Assembly: GCA_016780775.1 (NCBI GenBank)
Contig: JADHLI010000007.1
Span: 46,768-110,767 of the forward strand
Direction of reading: 5' to 3'
Length of the DNA stretch: 64,000 bases
DNA from: Alphaproteobacteria bacterium
GTDB lineage: Bacteria > Pseudomonadota > Alphaproteobacteria > Puniceispirillales > Puniceispirillaceae
Part shown: positions 1 through 13,013 of the stretch, piece after piece
Numbering within the stretch: position 1 is the stretch's first letter
Layout of the letters: each line of letters begins with the position of its first letter
Notes under the pieces: generated by a model
The model's database searches: none
What the model saw: the letters and a program-made list of their open reading frames with translations, nothing else
What the model was told of the DNA's origin: nothing
Program-made: the position numbers and the translations under genes

Positions 1-144
1 GAGCTAATTTTTGACGATAATGGCTTACTTGTCTTGCACCATGACCATTGGGATAGCGCGCATCAGCTGTTATCTGATATCCCAGTAGCTGGATTTTTTA
101 TATCCAAGCTATTAAAGCTGTTTGCCTTGCCAAAACGCCATTAA
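1..144 (+). CDS. NTF2-like (SnoaL-type) protein, C-terminal end only
   Basis: An open frame runs in from the left edge and stops after 47 codons. The visible end, with the HHDHWD motif followed by a hydrophobic, Lys-rich tail, resembles the C-terminus of the small NTF2-like proteins found beside DUF3833, CFA-like and DUF1365 genes in proteobacteria. The start and the NTF2 fold core lie outside the window, so the family call rests on this tail and on context. It faces the DUF3833 gene tail to tail with a 38-bp gap. Its function is unknown. Confidence 0.55.
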   Translation, partial: ELIFDDNGLLVLHHDHWDSAHQLLSDIPVAGFFISKLLKLFALPKRH

Positions 145-182: not shown

Positions 183-680
183 CTAGCTGGCTTTGGTGAA
201 AGTGATAACAAGCTCGCCCAACAAAAGTCCGAATTTCGATACCTTGGCGCGGTTTAATATCGTGGTATCTGTCTGGCGCACCATAATGTCGTTAAATCTA
301 ACTTTCACGCGCCGGCCAAACATGTTCAAAAAGAAATCATACTGTAACTTGAAAACAGGCCCATCGACACTGCCAAGGGCATGACCATCCACATCGTCGG
401 TATCGGCAACATAGCTGCCGTCGGGGTTTCTAGTAATGGTCCAGACGCGATGTTCTGTCTCGCCATCATCAAATATAAAGGCTTCATGTAATTCTGTTTG
501 ATTATCGTTAGTGCGACAGTTCACCTCAGCAGCAAAGCGGCGCTGCACACTACCAAAGCGGTCGACAAACATGCCTTGTGCAAGAAACTTGCCGCTGAAA
601 AAACGTACCGGATCAAATGTCTCACTGGTTAGCTGAAAATCTGCGGGGATGCCATCAGGGGACATAAATAAAGCTTTCAC
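183..680 (-). CDS. DUF3833 family protein
   Basis: This 165-residue protein matches the DUF3833 type: a conserved FDPVRFFSGKF block near residues 21-32, a GxFVDRFG segment, and a C-terminal half rich in beta strands with FLNMFGRRVKVRF. No lipoprotein cysteine or signal peptide is evident in this copy. The first codon is GTG and an ATG lies five codons further in, so the start is uncertain. It is the last gene of a same-strand series with the CFA-like methyltransferase, DUF1365 and a flavoprotein, which suggests a role in lipid modification. The biochemical activity of the family is not established. Confidence 0.75.
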   Translation of the reverse strand: MKALFMSPDGIPADFQLTSETFDPVRFFSGKFLAQGMFVDRFGSVQRRFAAEVNCRTNDNQTELHEAFIFDDGETEHRVWTITRNPDGSYVADTDDVDGHALGSVDGPVFKLQYDFFLNMFGRRVKVRFNDIMVRQTDTTILNRAKVSKFGLLLGELVITFTKAS

Positions 681-753: not shown

Positions 754-1947
754 TTATTTATGGGAGATCAGCATTTGCTTTACATCGATCATGCCGGCAC
801 GAAACCCGCCCTCACAATAGCATAAATATAGCTCCCACATACGCTTAAATCGCTCATCAAACTTATTCATTGTGCTTAATTCTGGCCAAGTAGATAAGAA
901 TTTTTCCCGCCAATGTGAGAGGGTGCGTGCATAATCAAGGGCAAAACCGTCATGCCTATCTAGCTTAAGGCCAGCATTTTCAAGCGGGTTTTCTAGCATT
1001 TTCATGGATGGCAGCATCCCACCAGGGAAAATATATTTCTGAATAAAATCAGGCTGAGCTTTATACTCATGGAATGCAGCATCATCGATAGTGATAACCT
1101 GCAAAGCGGCTTTGCCACCCTTTTTCAGACATTTAGAAAGCGTGTCGAAATAAATCGGCCAATAGGCTTCGCCAACAGCTTCAAACATTTCAATAGAAAT
1201 AATCTTATCATAAGTTTTATCTAGATCGCGATAGTCACAAATCCGGATATTTGCCTTCTCAGCAAGCCCAGCTTGTTCGATACGTGTTTTTGCGAAATCA
1301 TGTTGGGATGGGCTGATAGTTATGCCATCAATATAGGCGCCTCGCTCTGCGGCAGCATATTCAGCAAAACCGCCCCATCCACAGCCAATTTCCAGCACCT
1401 TATCACCAGGCTGAATGTCAGCAAGTTCTGCCAGACGTTCATATTTCCGATATTGTGCAGCATCCAGCCTATCTTCCCCATCAGCAAAAATCGCCGAAGA
1501 ATAGGTCATAGAATTATCGAGCCATTTTTCATAAAACTGGTTCCCTAAATCGTAATGATAAGTGATATTGCGACGCGAGCCTGTTTTGTTATTACGGTTG
1601 CGCCAATGCAACAGTTTACGGAGTAGAGTTTGCAAACTTCCAAAGGACATATGCTCTTCGAGATAGGCATCATGCAACACGGCTAGCTGGATAAGTGCAG
1701 ACAGATCAGGACTATCCAAATCTCCTGCCATATAGCCTTCACAAAAACCCATTTTTCCGTCTGATAACAGTCGGTTAATAGCCTTTGGTGAAATAATCTT
1801 TAAATACCCATCAGGCCCTGCCTGACGGCCTTTAAAGTGATGTTTTTCTCCGCTTGGCAGGGTTAGCTCGAGCGAGCCAAATTCCAGATGCGATAACAGT
1901 TTTAGAAACGCTTTTTCTTTTAATTTTTGACCAGATAATAACATCAT
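754..1947 (-). CDS. CFA-synthase-like SAM methyltransferase, non-canonical active site
   Basis: This 397-residue protein has the fold of cyclopropane-fatty-acyl-phospholipid synthase, which uses SAM to modify unsaturated acyl chains of membrane phospholipids. The SAM motif VLEIGCGWGG is at residues 184-193. Set against E. coli Cfa, the active-site Cys139 is Ser151 (MTYSSAIF) and His266 is Gln283 (ALQVIT), while Glu256 and Tyr339 are kept. Loss of Cys and His, which with Glu and Tyr bind the bicarbonate base, suggests a C-methyltransferase making methyl- or methylene-branched chains rather than cyclopropanes, as proposed for UfaM/BfaB-type enzymes. It lies 10 bp after the DUF1365 gene in an apparent operon with a flavoprotein. 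The window holds a second, canonical paralogue at 11.7-13.0 kb. Confidence 0.85.
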   Translation of the reverse strand: MMLLSGQKLKEKAFLKLLSHLEFGSLELTLPSGEKHHFKGRQAGPDGYLKIISPKAINRLLSDGKMGFCEGYMAGDLDSPDLSALIQLAVLHDAYLEEHMSFGSLQTLLRKLLHWRNRNNKTGSRRNITYHYDLGNQFYEKWLDNSMTYSSAIFADGEDRLDAAQYRKYERLAELADIQPGDKVLEIGCGWGGFAEYAAAERGAYIDGITISPSQHDFAKTRIEQAGLAEKANIRICDYRDLDKTYDKIISIEMFEAVGEAYWPIYFDTLSKCLKKGGKAALQVITIDDAAFHEYKAQPDFIQKYIFPGGMLPSMKMLENPLENAGLKLDRHDGFALDYARTLSHWREKFLSTWPELSTMNKFDERFKRMWELYLCYCEGGFRAGMIDVKQMLISHK

Positions 1948-1957
1948 TCTTTTGGAC

Positions 1958-2773
1958 TCATCTCTTTGGTTTTAAAGGTGTGGCTAGCGTGGCTGTTTCG
2001 GATGGCGGGGTAGGCCGCTTATAAAATCGACATTTTTTCATGAAGAGTTTAAAGGCTTCGACATGGATGGATAATAGGGGGCGAAGTGGCCAGAACCCTT
2101 GCAGGAACAAAGCTTTGAGAAGGCCGCCTGTCTCTAGGTTTTGTATTTTGCCATGCAGGCGTGCGGTAAGAAGCTGTTGTTTATCGCGCGCATAATTTAC
2201 CAGCACGTTCATATTATCGCCGCGCTGTTTAACCATTAGCCGATAATAGCCATCTAGCGGGAAAAAAGGCGAAACATGCAGCTGTTTATCCACGCGTTGC
2301 AGGGTATTTTCATCCCCCTCACCAATAACACTGATATAAGAATGGGCATCGCCAAAGGTGTTATGTACCTCATAGACATAAAAACAAGGGCGTTTTTTTT
2401 CATCATAACCGAGATAGATAGTTATCGGATTAAATGCAAAGCCTAGAATGCGCGGGAAAGCCAGTAGCTTTAAAGATTCAATTTTTCGCCCTTTCAAATA
2501 GGGGCTAGCCATTTGGCGGATATAATCGGCAAGCGGCATAGGCTGGTTGCTCTTATTGGGGTGGGATTTGTGATTTATGCCAAAATCGCGCTCATGAAAA
2601 GAAAATAGATTAAAGCGATTTACAGAGAAAAATGCGCTGATTTTTCCAGCAACATCCAGCCGATCCAAATCAATTAGCATAGACAGGCCGGGGCGATGCA
2701 GAACATGCGCAGGCGGCCCATAACGTATATGAGTTATCTGTGATATCACAAGATGACATGCTACATCATGCAT
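1958..2773 (-). CDS. DUF1365 family protein
   Basis: A 271-residue member of DUF1365. It has the N-terminal HVLHRPGLSMLIDLDRLD block, the central AFPRILGFAFNPITIY motif and the EVHNTFGDAHSY motif typical of the family. Members are almost always coded beside a CFA-like methyltransferase and an FAD-dependent amine-oxidase-like protein, as here, and are often under singlet-oxygen or light-stress control. The activity is not settled; a role in modifying membrane acyl chains is inferred from that linkage. The gene sits 38 bp downstream of the flavoprotein and 10 bp upstream of the methyltransferase. Confidence 0.85.
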   Translation of the reverse strand: MHDVACHLVISQITHIRYGPPAHVLHRPGLSMLIDLDRLDVAGKISAFFSVNRFNLFSFHERDFGINHKSHPNKSNQPMPLADYIRQMASPYLKGRKIESLKLLAFPRILGFAFNPITIYLGYDEKKRPCFYVYEVHNTFGDAHSYISVIGEGDENTLQRVDKQLHVSPFFPLDGYYRLMVKQRGDNMNVLVNYARDKQQLLTARLHGKIQNLETGGLLKALFLQGFWPLRPLLSIHVEAFKLFMKKCRFYKRPTPPSETATLATPLKPKR

Positions 2774-2811
2774 AATAGCCAGCCCTTTAAATCCCCTAAA
2801 GAAGTGTAATA

Positions 2812-4122
2812 TCAGGCAGGTTTGTTATGCAACTGCTTACTACCATTGAGCGTGATTGGTGCCACAGCGTTAGTCGGGGTTTTCCAAGGCACATCTATAT
2901 GCAGGCTCTTGGCAACCGCTACAGCAGATTTTAGCCCATCTTCATGAAAGCCATAAGCCGTCCATGCCCCACACCAGAACAGTCCATTCTTACCTTGAAT
3001 GTTGGGTAATGTCTTTTGTGCCTGTATCGCTTTACTATCAAAAATTGGGTGCTGATAATCGATTTCATGGTGAATGAGGGCGGCATCTGGGCGCGTCTCA
3101 GGATTTAGAGTAACAAATAATGGATAGCGCTTATCCAAACTCTGCAAGCGGTTCATCCAATAGGTTACAGCCAAAGAATTATCCCTATTTTCTAGATAGT
3201 TCCAAGCTGCCCACGCGCCGCGCCGCTTTGGCATTAATTTAGGGTCAGAGTGCAGAATGACGTGGTTGTCAGAGAAAGAAAAGCTGGAGAGGATATCGCG
3301 TTCTTGGGTACTTGCATCCTCTATCATCGCTAAGCTTTCATCCGCATGCGCAGCCATTATCGCATAATCATACCAAACCTCTCCTTGCCCTTCTATTGTC
3401 AGCACCACGCCGCCTGCCTCGCGCCGGATAGACGTTATCTGGGTATCGAGCTCTATTGCATCGCCTAAATCAGCAACAATTTTTTCAACATAGGCACGCG
3501 ACCCGCCCTTTACGGTGCGCCACATTGGTCTGCCGGTAAAATCCATCAGCCGGTGGTTTTCCATAAATTGCAGAAAGGAGCGAATGGGATAATCTAGCAT
3601 AGTCTCTGCTGGGCATGACCAGATAGCTGCACCCATGGGAAGGAGGTGATCTTCTACAAACGCATCTGATAATTTGCATCTTTTGATAAATCCGCCAAGG
3701 GTTTCACCAGCTGGGCCTTTATCTTTTTCTGCCATTCCAGTGGAATAGAATTTTATTAATCCCGATAGCATTGACCAGAAGCGTGGACGAAGAAGATTGG
3801 CGGGTTGTGCTATTAGCCCGCGTAAGGAGCCTTCATATTCAAAACTCTGCTCACGCATGGATACTGAAAACGACATATCTGTTGGCAGGGTTTCAACCCC
3901 CAAGGTGTCAAATAAACCGATAAGGTTGGGATAATTAGCTTCATTATAGACAATAAAGCCGGTATCTACGGCAATAGAACTATCCTTAAAATGCGCATCA
4001 ACTGTATGCGCATGCCCGCCAATACGCGGTGCTTTTTCATATAATTTTACATGATGTTCGCGACTTGCAAGCCAAGCCGCTCCTAGCCCTGATATACCTG
4101 CGCCAATAACCGCAATACGCAT
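2812..4122 (-). CDS. FAD-dependent oxidoreductase (amine oxidase/desaturase-like, COG2907)
   Basis: This 436-residue flavoprotein opens with an N-terminal Rossmann FAD motif (AVIGAGISGLGAAWL, residues 4-18) followed by an acidic/basic ribose-binding stretch. A second FAD-contact region lies near the C-terminus (NGLFWCGAWTAYGFHEDGL). This is the NAD(P)-binding amine oxidase/phytoene-desaturase-like family that travels with DUF1365 and CFA-like methyltransferases. A role in oxidising or reducing methylated acyl chains is possible by analogy with BfaA and furan fatty acid loci, but this is inference. It is 47 bp downstream of pdeM on the same strand, so it may share transcripts with the repair genes. 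Confidence 0.8.
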   Translation of the reverse strand: MRIAVIGAGISGLGAAWLASREHHVKLYEKAPRIGGHAHTVDAHFKDSSIAVDTGFIVYNEANYPNLIGLFDTLGVETLPTDMSFSVSMREQSFEYEGSLRGLIAQPANLLRPRFWSMLSGLIKFYSTGMAEKDKGPAGETLGGFIKRCKLSDAFVEDHLLPMGAAIWSCPAETMLDYPIRSFLQFMENHRLMDFTGRPMWRTVKGGSRAYVEKIVADLGDAIELDTQITSIRREAGGVVLTIEGQGEVWYDYAIMAAHADESLAMIEDASTQERDILSSFSFSDNHVILHSDPKLMPKRRGAWAAWNYLENRDNSLAVTYWMNRLQSLDKRYPLFVTLNPETRPDAALIHHEIDYQHPIFDSKAIQAQKTLPNIQGKNGLFWCGAWTAYGFHEDGLKSAVAVAKSLHIDVPWKTPTNAVAPITLNGSKQLHNKPA

Positions 4123-11286: not shown

Positions 11287-11751
11287 TTATTCAGTATCCC
11301 AATCCACGATATGGTCAGGCATATCTGCATCGTCAACACTGCCTTCGGGAAAAATCCGTCCAGCGACTGAATGGCCTGCGCGTGCAACGCTATCTGGCGT
11401 TCCTGAAATAAGCGGATGCCAGTCTGCTAGGCCGCGCCCCTCATGCAGACGCCGATATGCACAGCTTTTTGGCATCCAGCTAATTTGACCAAGTGTTTCT
11501 GGTGTTAATACCACACAATCTGGCACATAGGTTTTGCGTTTCTCATAATTTTGGCATTGTGCTGAGGCGCAATCTAGTAATTTACAGCCTATATCGGTGC
11601 TATAGACCTCTTTTGTATCTATATCTTCTAGCTTTAGAACGCAGCATTTTCCGCAACCATCACATAGAGATTCCCATTCAGCTTGGCTCATCTCATCTAA
11701 AGATTTGGTCTCATAAAAAGGGGCGGCTGAATTTGATTTAGGCGCACTCAT
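11287..11751 (-). CDS. YcgN family cysteine cluster protein (UPF0260)
   Basis: A 154-residue protein of the YcgN/YkgJ-like group with the hallmark CDGCGKCC motif, followed by further conserved Cys residues (GCKLLDCASAQCQNY, VPDCVVL, SCAYRRL). These could bind a metal or Fe-S cluster; the cellular role is unknown. Its ATG overlaps the stop of the upstream CFA synthase by four bases, so the two are very probably cotranslated. Confidence 0.88.
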   Translation of the reverse strand: MSAPKSNSAAPFYETKSLDEMSQAEWESLCDGCGKCCVLKLEDIDTKEVYSTDIGCKLLDCASAQCQNYEKRKTYVPDCVVLTPETLGQISWMPKSCAYRRLHEGRGLADWHPLISGTPDSVARAGHSVAGRIFPEGSVDDADMPDHIVDWDTE

Positions 11752-13013
11752 AACAGCTTTAAAACTCTTTTTTCTTCATTAGCGATATAGTCTCTGGTCT
11801 GCGGCACATCTTCATGACGTCTAGCCAGCTGAATCTGGAATACCATGCCATGCGCATATCTGAAATAATTTTCACTACAAATAAGATAAAATCGCCACAT
11901 ACGGATAAAGGCTTCATCATAATGTTCTGGAAGCTGGTTCTTTTGCGCTTCAAAGCGCGCGCGCCAATGGTGCAGGGTTTCAGCGTAATGCAACCGCATT
12001 ATTTCAATATCAGTTACTTTTAGTGTCGTTTTTTCAATGGCCTGCATCATCTGCCGCAAGGTAGGCAGATAGCCACCGGGGAAAATATATCTAATAAGCC
12101 AGGGGCTGGTTGCACAAGGTCGGCCATTGCGGCCAATAGAATGGATAACTGCCACCCCATTATCGGCTAGATGCCGGTCGATAGAAGCCATAAATCTATT
12201 TAGATTCTGCTTGCCTACATGTTCGAGCATGCCAACTGAAATAATACGATCAAAGCGGCGATTTCCCAGTTTGCAGTAGTCACACAATTCCACTGATAGC
12301 TGTTTGTTAAGGCTCTTCTCCTCAATTAATTTTTTAAAATAAGCATATTGATTAGCGGATAAGGTAATACCCGTGATATTTAGAGTATCTGCGCATTTGG
12401 AGAGTGCGGTGGCAAGCCCGCCCCAACCGCAGCCAATATCCAAAACTTTCATGTTTTCTTGCAGATGAAGCTTGGCAGCCAATCTGGCCATTTTCTGTTT
12501 TTGCGCAATGTCTAGCGTATCGTCATTTGACTGAAAATAGGCGCATGAATATTGCCGGTTTTCATCTAAAAATAGATCAAATAGCTGGTCAGTTAAATCA
12601 TAATGATGGGCAACATTCTTGCGTGAGCGCCCGACCGGATTTAAAGATGCAAACCAGCCAATAACCTCCCAGAACTGGCAATAGATACGGCCAATCAGGC
12701 TATGGCGCCAGCTTTGCGTATTCTGGAATAAGAAGGCAACAAAATCTTCAAATGAGCCTTCTGTAATGGTCAACTCGCCGCGCATATAATATTCACCAAA
12801 CAGAGGGTCTGGACGCAATATGAGCGCCCATAAAGCAGCAGGGTGCTGCAGGCTAATCCCTATGCAGACCCCATTACTAGGCTGCTGCCTTTTTCTAATT
12901 TTCCAGACTCTGTTGCGCGGCGTAACCACGATATCTGGTTTGCCGGGAAGCGATATCTTTAGCTGTCCAGATGACAGCATATGCCGAAGAATGAGAATGG
13001 CTAGTCTGACCAT
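11748..13013 (-). CDS. cfa: Cyclopropane-fatty-acyl-phospholipid synthase (canonical active site)
   Basis: This 421-residue CFA synthase transfers the SAM methyl carbon to cis double bonds of phospholipid acyl chains at the inner membrane surface. The SAM motif VLDIGCGWGG is at residues 190-199. The catalytic residues known from E. coli Cfa are all present: Cys157 (RQYSCAYF), Glu264 (LEHVG), His291 (IHSIG) and Tyr343. This contrasts with the paralogue at 0.75-1.95 kb, which has lost the Cys and His. It overlaps ycgN by four bases and is divergent from mnmC. Cyclopropane formation usually protects membranes in stationary phase or under stress. Confidence 0.9.
   Translation of the reverse strand: MVRLAILILRHMLSSGQLKISLPGKPDIVVTPRNRVWKIRKRQQPSNGVCIGISLQHPAALWALILRPDPLFGEYYMRGELTITEGSFEDFVAFLFQNTQSWRHSLIGRIYCQFWEVIGWFASLNPVGRSRKNVAHHYDLTDQLFDLFLDENRQYSCAYFQSNDDTLDIAQKQKMARLAAKLHLQENMKVLDIGCGWGGLATALSKCADTLNITGITLSANQYAYFKKLIEEKSLNKQLSVELCDYCKLGNRRFDRIISVGMLEHVGKQNLNRFMASIDRHLADNGVAVIHSIGRNGRPCATSPWLIRYIFPGGYLPTLRQMMQAIEKTTLKVTDIEIMRLHYAETLHHWRARFEAQKNQLPEHYDEAFIRMWRFYLICSENYFRYAHGMVFQIQLARRHEDVPQTRDYIANEEKRVLKLL

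Follow-up and report, generated by a model that had tools for sequence, protein, structure and literature searches.

The published furan fatty acid pathway comprises three proteins, namely, UfaM, a methylase resembling cyclopropane fatty acid (CFA) synthases; UfaD, a nicotinamide/flavin adenine dinucleotide (NAD/FAD)-binding desaturase; and UfaO, a DUF1365 protein (PMC7380195). Experiments in Rhodobacter sphaeroides and Rhodopseudomonas palustris demonstrated methyl transfer to cis-vaccenoyl chains with double-bond migration, desaturation, and O2-dependent furan formation, and the three genes RPA2571-2570-2569 of R. palustris (ufaD-ufaO-ufaM) suffice for the formation of the furan fatty acid 9M5-FuFA in R. 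sphaeroides (PMC7380195). Here, we analyze a stretch of 64,000 nucleotides (the window; contig JADHLI010000007.1) from an alphaproteobacterium of the family Puniceispirillaceae, whose left end carries an operon with a CFA-like methyltransferase gene. We conclude that this locus is very probably a furan fatty acid operon of the form ufaD-ufaO-ufaM. As such, it would be a further member of a pathway already known, with its steps assigned by orthology with R. sphaeroides and R. palustris. The genome containing the window comprises 2.2 Mb in 44 contigs, and the source organism is probably marine.

Comparison with described ufa operons

Four intact open reading frames on the minus strand encode, in order, an FAD-dependent protein, a DUF1365 protein, the CFA-like protein, and a DUF3833 protein, with intervals of 38, 10, and 73 bases, respectively (Table 1). 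Homologues of all three Ufa proteins are thus present, and their genes follow the order of RPA2571-2570-2569 as seen in the R. palustris loci used for comparison (L154 and L155). The reference genomes were reached by a search with the R. palustris form II RuBisCO and then searched for ufa genes; strains XCP and 2.1.18 of R. palustris both show the D-O-M order and a UfaM with S/E/A/Q/Y at the positions of Cys139, Glu239, His240, His266, and Tyr317 in Escherichia coli Cfa. The window locus resembles RPA2571-2569 in gene order, protein families, UfaM residues, and clade. It differs in its fourth gene, DUF3833, in the SnoaL and SDR genes alongside, in the lack of a recognizable FufM (the second methylase) in its genome, and in sequence, with identities of ~46% for UfaM and ~34% for UfaO.

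The R. sphaeroides system, RSP1091-1087 with an unlinked ufaM (RSP2144), likewise shares genes for UfaD, UfaO, DUF3833, and SDR proteins with the window and has rpoE-chrR in the genome. In the window, however, ufaM lies inside the operon, rpoE-chrR is on another contig, and the operon has no MFS gene. Cereibacter johrii, a sister species of R. sphaeroides, encodes one UfaM-type protein of the CMAS family (S/E/A/Q/Y) from an unlinked gene. Its ufaD-ufaO-MFS-DUF3833-SDR operon is located separately, next to rpoE-chrR, an arrangement also seen in R. sphaeroides. As the C. johrii gene at the position of RSP1088 encodes DUF3833, and deletion of RSP1088 in R. sphaeroides left the fatty acid profile unchanged (PMC7380195), the furan chemistry probably does not involve DUF3833. 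DUF3833 genes accompany ufa genes in both Alpha- and Gammaproteobacteria. The genomes of Rhodobacter capsulatus, Rhodoblastus, and Magnetovibrio that were searched contained neither UfaM nor DUF1365.

A longer cluster occurs in Salinivibrio, in the order MerR-phrB-NTF2-SDR-ufaD-ufaO-ufaM-DUF2878-hypothetical-DUF3833, and a Klebsiella plasmid carries a similar one. NTF2/SnoaL, SDR, the three ufa genes, and DUF3833 are common to these clusters and the window; the differences are that the SnoaL and SDR genes of the window locus are on the opposite strand and that photolyase, MerR, and DUF2878 genes were not found beside its operon. Given these counterparts, the SnoaL/NTF2-like gene and the SDR gene, which is on the plus strand just left of the window (stretch L006), belong to a wider cluster. 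The DUF3833 gene lies just beyond the range that the initial annotation of the window had covered.

That annotation had proposed methylation of acyl chains followed by oxidation or reduction, as in either the ufa or the bfa system. The first of these comparisons holds in gene content, gene order, clade, and active-site residues, and the second does not. In the bfa/tms pathway, methylation and reduction dependent on NADPH (reduced NAD phosphate) yield 10-methyl (tuberculostearic) fatty acids, and the presence of a CFA-like methylase and an FAD enzyme in one operon agrees with such a function. The published tms operon, however, pairs a cfa homologue with an FAD oxidase gene (PMC7791843), whereas here DUF1365 intervenes between the methylase and FAD genes; conservation of the Cfa bicarbonate site was the criterion by which tms methylases were chosen (PMC7791843), and the FAD protein of the window scores ~400 bits against the gene that occupies the ufaD position in R. 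palustris. With the methylase not directly paired with the FAD gene and Gln in place of the bicarbonate-binding His, membership in the bfa/tms group is rejected, and we consider this function for the locus barely conceivable.

Table 1. Features of the putative ufa locus and the second CFA gene, with the coordinates of informative codons (positions in the window)
Feature	Position	Strand	Basis
SnoaL/NTF2-like gene, 3' end	1-144	+	Rest of gene left of window
DUF3833 gene, fourth in operon	183-680	-	Pfam DUF3833 7e-46
ufaM homologue, putative S-adenosylmethionine (SAM)-dependent cis-vaccenoyl 11-methyltransferase, not cyclopropane synthase	754-1947	-	Pfam CMAS 1e-86; clade, synteny, residues
Tyr339 codon, equivalent to Tyr317 of E. 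coli Cfa, kept	931-933	-	Alignment
Gln283 codon, equivalent to His266 of E. coli Cfa	1099-1101	-	Gln in 84/84 of UfaM clade
Ala257 codon, equivalent to His240 of E. coli Cfa	1177-1179	-	Ala in 83/84 of UfaM clade
Glu256 codon, equivalent to Glu239 of E. coli Cfa, kept	1180-1182	-	Alignment
Glu253 codon, equivalent to Gly236 of E. coli Cfa	1189-1191	-	Glu in 84/84 of UfaM clade
Ser151 codon, equivalent to Cys139 of E. coli Cfa	1495-1497	-	Alignment
ufaO homologue (DUF1365), putative O2-dependent furan-forming enzyme	1958-2773	-	Pfam DUF1365 1e-57; ~130 bits to R. palustris gene
ufaD homologue, putative FAD-dependent acyl desaturase	2812-4122	-	Pfam Amino_oxidase/NAD_binding_8; ~400 bits to R. 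palustris gene in equivalent place
Second CFA synthase, ordinary kind, C/E/H/Y	11748-13013	-	Residue alignment and tree

Active-site residues and phylogeny of the methylase

Residues were placed by aligning the protein to synthases of solved structure, including E. coli Cfa (6bqc). The initial annotation had reported that the CFA-like protein keeps the SAM site and the Glu and Tyr of CFA synthases, with Ser151 replacing the Cys and Gln283 the bicarbonate-binding His, and that the second CFA gene of the window retains all four residues (C/E/H/Y). Both observations are borne out by the alignment, but the term "catalytic Cys" gives Cys139 too large a role, as the side-chain ligands of bicarbonate in E. 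coli Cfa are Glu239, His266, and Tyr317 (PMC11387697). The CFA-like protein departs from this Glu/His/Tyr set at the His, and two further changes, Ala257 for His240 and Glu253 for Gly236, had been missed. Together with its different clade, these four substitutions (Cys139, His266, His240, and Gly236 to Ser, Gln, Ala, and Glu) distinguish the protein from E. coli Cfa, with which it shares the CMAS family, the SAM site, Glu239, and Tyr317. The same S/E/Q/Y combination is found in a genome of the same genus (94% identical) and in all 30 UfaM loci examined in the window's family, so that neither chance nor a sequencing slip accounts for Ser and Gln.

To place these residues in a wider context, 156 different CMAS proteins were aligned, drawn from a survey of 385 alphaproteobacteria, 120 proteobacteria, named reference genomes, and plasmid records. 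Gln occupies the His266 position in all 66 proteins whose genes neighbor a DUF1365 gene, and at the Cys139 position these proteins show Ser (50), Ala (14), Gly (1), or Cys (1). In a tree computed without the trait columns (E. coli Cfa positions 139, 240, and 266), these 66 proteins and 18 more form one clade, here the UfaM clade, in which the Cys139 position holds 68 Ser, 14 Ala, 1 Gly, and 1 Cys. A branch with SH-aLRT support of 99 separates all Gln-type proteins but one from the remainder. The CFA-like protein of the window groups with those of its own family (support of 100) within a set of 38 (96) that also holds the UfaM proteins of R. palustris and C. johrii. It thus falls with relatives of proven UfaM and not with E. 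coli Cfa and the other Cys/His proteins, among which the second CFA of the window is found together with an R. palustris paralogue (L129). This is the opposite of a placement among proven cyclopropane synthases, the outcome that the initial annotation had named as one that would count against its proposal.

Gly236, His240, and His266 change together in the UfaM clade. Whereas members of this clade carry Glu, Ala, and Gln at these positions (Table 1), the 63 Cys/His proteins have Gly in 59, His in 61, and His in all 63, respectively. Outside the clade, every aligned protein but one has His at the His266 position. As Gln is invariant in the clade and the Cys position is looser, the change from His to Gln is a reliable mark of UfaM and the change of Cys a weaker one. 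Proteins with no DUF1365 gene nearby are either Cys/His, or Ser/His and mostly FufM-like, or Gln-type members of the UfaM clade, for which DUF1365 is encoded elsewhere or has been lost. The single exception outside the clade (L243:2037-3491; S/E/H/Q/F) has no DUF1365 gene next to it and stands apart, as it retains the other His and has gained Gln, and Phe for Tyr, independently. Since Gln arose again in this protein, it is no proof of UfaM when alone, and Ala257 and Glu253 should agree with it.

The CFA-like protein could instead be an ordinary cyclopropane synthase in which Cys and His have drifted, as relatives are annotated. It belongs to the CMAS family and retains the SAM site, relatives have been published as cfa, and the SAR116 isolate IMCC1322 contains 0.66% cyclopropane acyl chains (PMC11813361). 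The values given for a SAR116 isolate in the literature cover cyclopropane and unsaturated fractions and include neither furans nor 11-methyl chains. However, the changed residues are fixed across a clade that spans Alpha- and Gammaproteobacteria to Actinomycetota and is tied to DUF1365, close relatives of proven UfaM have them as well, and the separate Cys/His synthase of the same genome, which is outside the furan pathway, can explain cyclopropanes. A drifted synthase is therefore very unlikely. Assignment as FufM, the enzyme of the dimethyl furan step, was also rejected, as neither CMAS protein is of the FufM type by residues or tree.

Predicted chemistry and physiological context

By analogy with the characterized enzymes, UfaM would act on cis-vaccenoyl chains of membrane phospholipids, transferring the methyl group of SAM to C11, with the double bond moving to C12 (11Me-12t-18:1) and no closure of a cyclopropane ring. 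The FAD enzyme UfaD would then add a second double bond to give 11Me-10t,12t-18:2, and the DUF1365 protein UfaO would insert one O atom from O2 and close the furan ring to give 9M5-FuFA. FufM-like proteins elsewhere score above 120 bits to CMAS; in the genome containing the window, only two CMAS proteins exceed 36 bits, neither of the FufM type, and the next match scores 35 bits, so no FufM was found there and a monomethyl furan is the expected product.

The residue changes in UfaM suggest how its outcome could differ from that of Cfa, in which bicarbonate deprotonates the protonated ring (PMC11387697). As Glu239, His266, and Tyr317 hold bicarbonate in Cfa, the residues of UfaM plausibly eliminate or shift this base. 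The replacement of His266 by Gln, His240 by Ala, and Gly236 by Glu would weaken or abolish bicarbonate binding, and the proton would then be taken from the neighboring chain carbon rather than from the new methyl group. An isotope study of a nematode relative, FCMT-1, agrees with loss of a proton from the chain, as one chain deuterium was lost on methyl transfer (PMC10876521). It can tentatively be hypothesized, at somewhat less than an even chance, that Glu253, Ala257, and Gln283, with Ser or Ala at position 151, form the switch from a cyclopropane synthase to a methyl-branching enzyme that works without bicarbonate by removing a proton from the neighboring chain carbon.

As the genome encodes an RpoE-ChrR pair and a rhodopsin, the operon may serve in defense against singlet oxygen produced by light, and furan fatty acids are antioxidants that scavenge reactive oxygen. 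The zinc-Cys site of ChrR is the proposed singlet oxygen sensor. In the ChrR-like anti-sigma factor encoded beside rpoE (L276:1474-2133, contig C14 of the window's own genome, and L278-L298), the N-terminal zinc ligands, the first His and both Cys, are lost and the cupin ligands kept, which holds for every family copy with a complete N terminus. Because of this loss, singlet oxygen sensing must differ here. A role against singlet oxygen is found in R. sphaeroides, where full activation of RpoE requires RSP1090 and RSP1091 (PMC3818230).

Several points weigh against the assignment as a furan fatty acid operon. No RpoE promoter was recognized by eye before ufaD, and the reference strains XCP, 2.1.18, and C. 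johrii differ from CGA009 and 2.4.1, in which experiments were done. Lastly, the low identity of UfaO to its R. palustris relative makes a changed product or chain length possible. The operon might represent an offshoot of the ufa pathway, in which the same chemistry acts on another chain or leads to a different oxygenated product. The identity of UfaO to relatives outside the family is only 26-35%, and some genomes keep UfaM without DUF1365, so that end products can differ between lineages. The UfaM marks, the gene order, and the UfaO invariants (H15, R17, E135, N138, H144, Y146, and K163) are nonetheless all kept, and we regard such a side branch as improbable. Of these invariants, H15, E135, and H144 could form a metal site.

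Distribution and implications for annotation

Assignment of the locus as ufaD-ufaO-ufaM also agrees with the distribution of its genes. Among the 120 proteobacterial genomes, DUF1365 and a UfaM-type protein occur together in 35, a UfaM-type protein alone in 4, and DUF1365 alone in none (Fisher P of 4e-26, with kinship ignored), consistent with dependence of UfaO on the product of UfaM within one pathway. A methylase match was found in 40 of 41 genomes of the window's family, and all 30 UfaM loci examined there combine the residue signature with an adjacent DUF1365 gene, with DUF3833 present in 26. A UfaM-type methylase with no full DUF1365 was observed in genomes G437, G455, G037, and G145, and G495 has a DUF1365 fragment; in such genomes, the 11-methyl alkene may be the end product. 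Complete ufaD-ufaO-ufaM sets are carried on plasmids of far-apart bacteria, namely, Rhodococcus (L265), Klebsiella pneumoniae (L269), and Legionella lytica (L270), and the pathway may therefore be mobile. FufM-like proteins (Ser or Cys, with His kept; L137, L235, and L258-L263) constitute a deep clade of their own. A FufM-like gene adjoins ufaD-ufaO-ufaM and a DUF1295 gene in both L235 and L259, where a dimethyl-furan cluster is likely.

No relative was found among the viral contigs searched with a DUF1365 alignment, and an NCBIfam search returned no model above cutoff for UfaM, UfaO, or UfaD. A gene for a cupin DMSP (dimethylsulfoniopropionate) lyase (PF16867, 6e-27) lies ~4.4 kb left of the operon on the minus strand (L006:11955-12572).

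What appears to be new here is the residue signature that tells UfaM from Cfa and the occurrence of the operon across the bacterial family of the window. The signature was not found in the UfaM literature examined, which did not cover the paper that first described the activity of UfaM (reference 18 of PMC7380195). It bears on existing annotations. Vibrio cholerae VC1122 is upregulated by blue light and has been read as a CFA synthase (PMC5241685). As its relative Salinivibrio (Vibrionaceae) has a photolyase-ufa cluster whose methylase is of the UfaM type, synteny suggests that VC1122 is probably a misannotated UfaM.

Similarly, we take a single-contig genome of the window's family (G213) to be that of "Ca. 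Puniceispirillum marinum" IMCC1322 (SAR116). In G213, a gene of the UfaM type is located at ~615 kb and a more distant, CFA-like one at ~697 kb. Two "cfa" genes, SAR116_0580 and SAR116_0655, have been described in P. marinum (PMC11813361). If G213 is indeed IMCC1322, one of the two is probably ufaM and the other a true cfa.

To our knowledge, the makers of furan fatty acids among marine bacteria are poorly known. With a rule that tells UfaM and Cfa apart by sequence, annotations can be corrected, and the small set of residues involved bears on whether a ring closes or a methyl branch results. If these residues do form the switch, genes annotated as cfa could be sorted by sequence alone into those of ring makers and those of makers of furan precursors.

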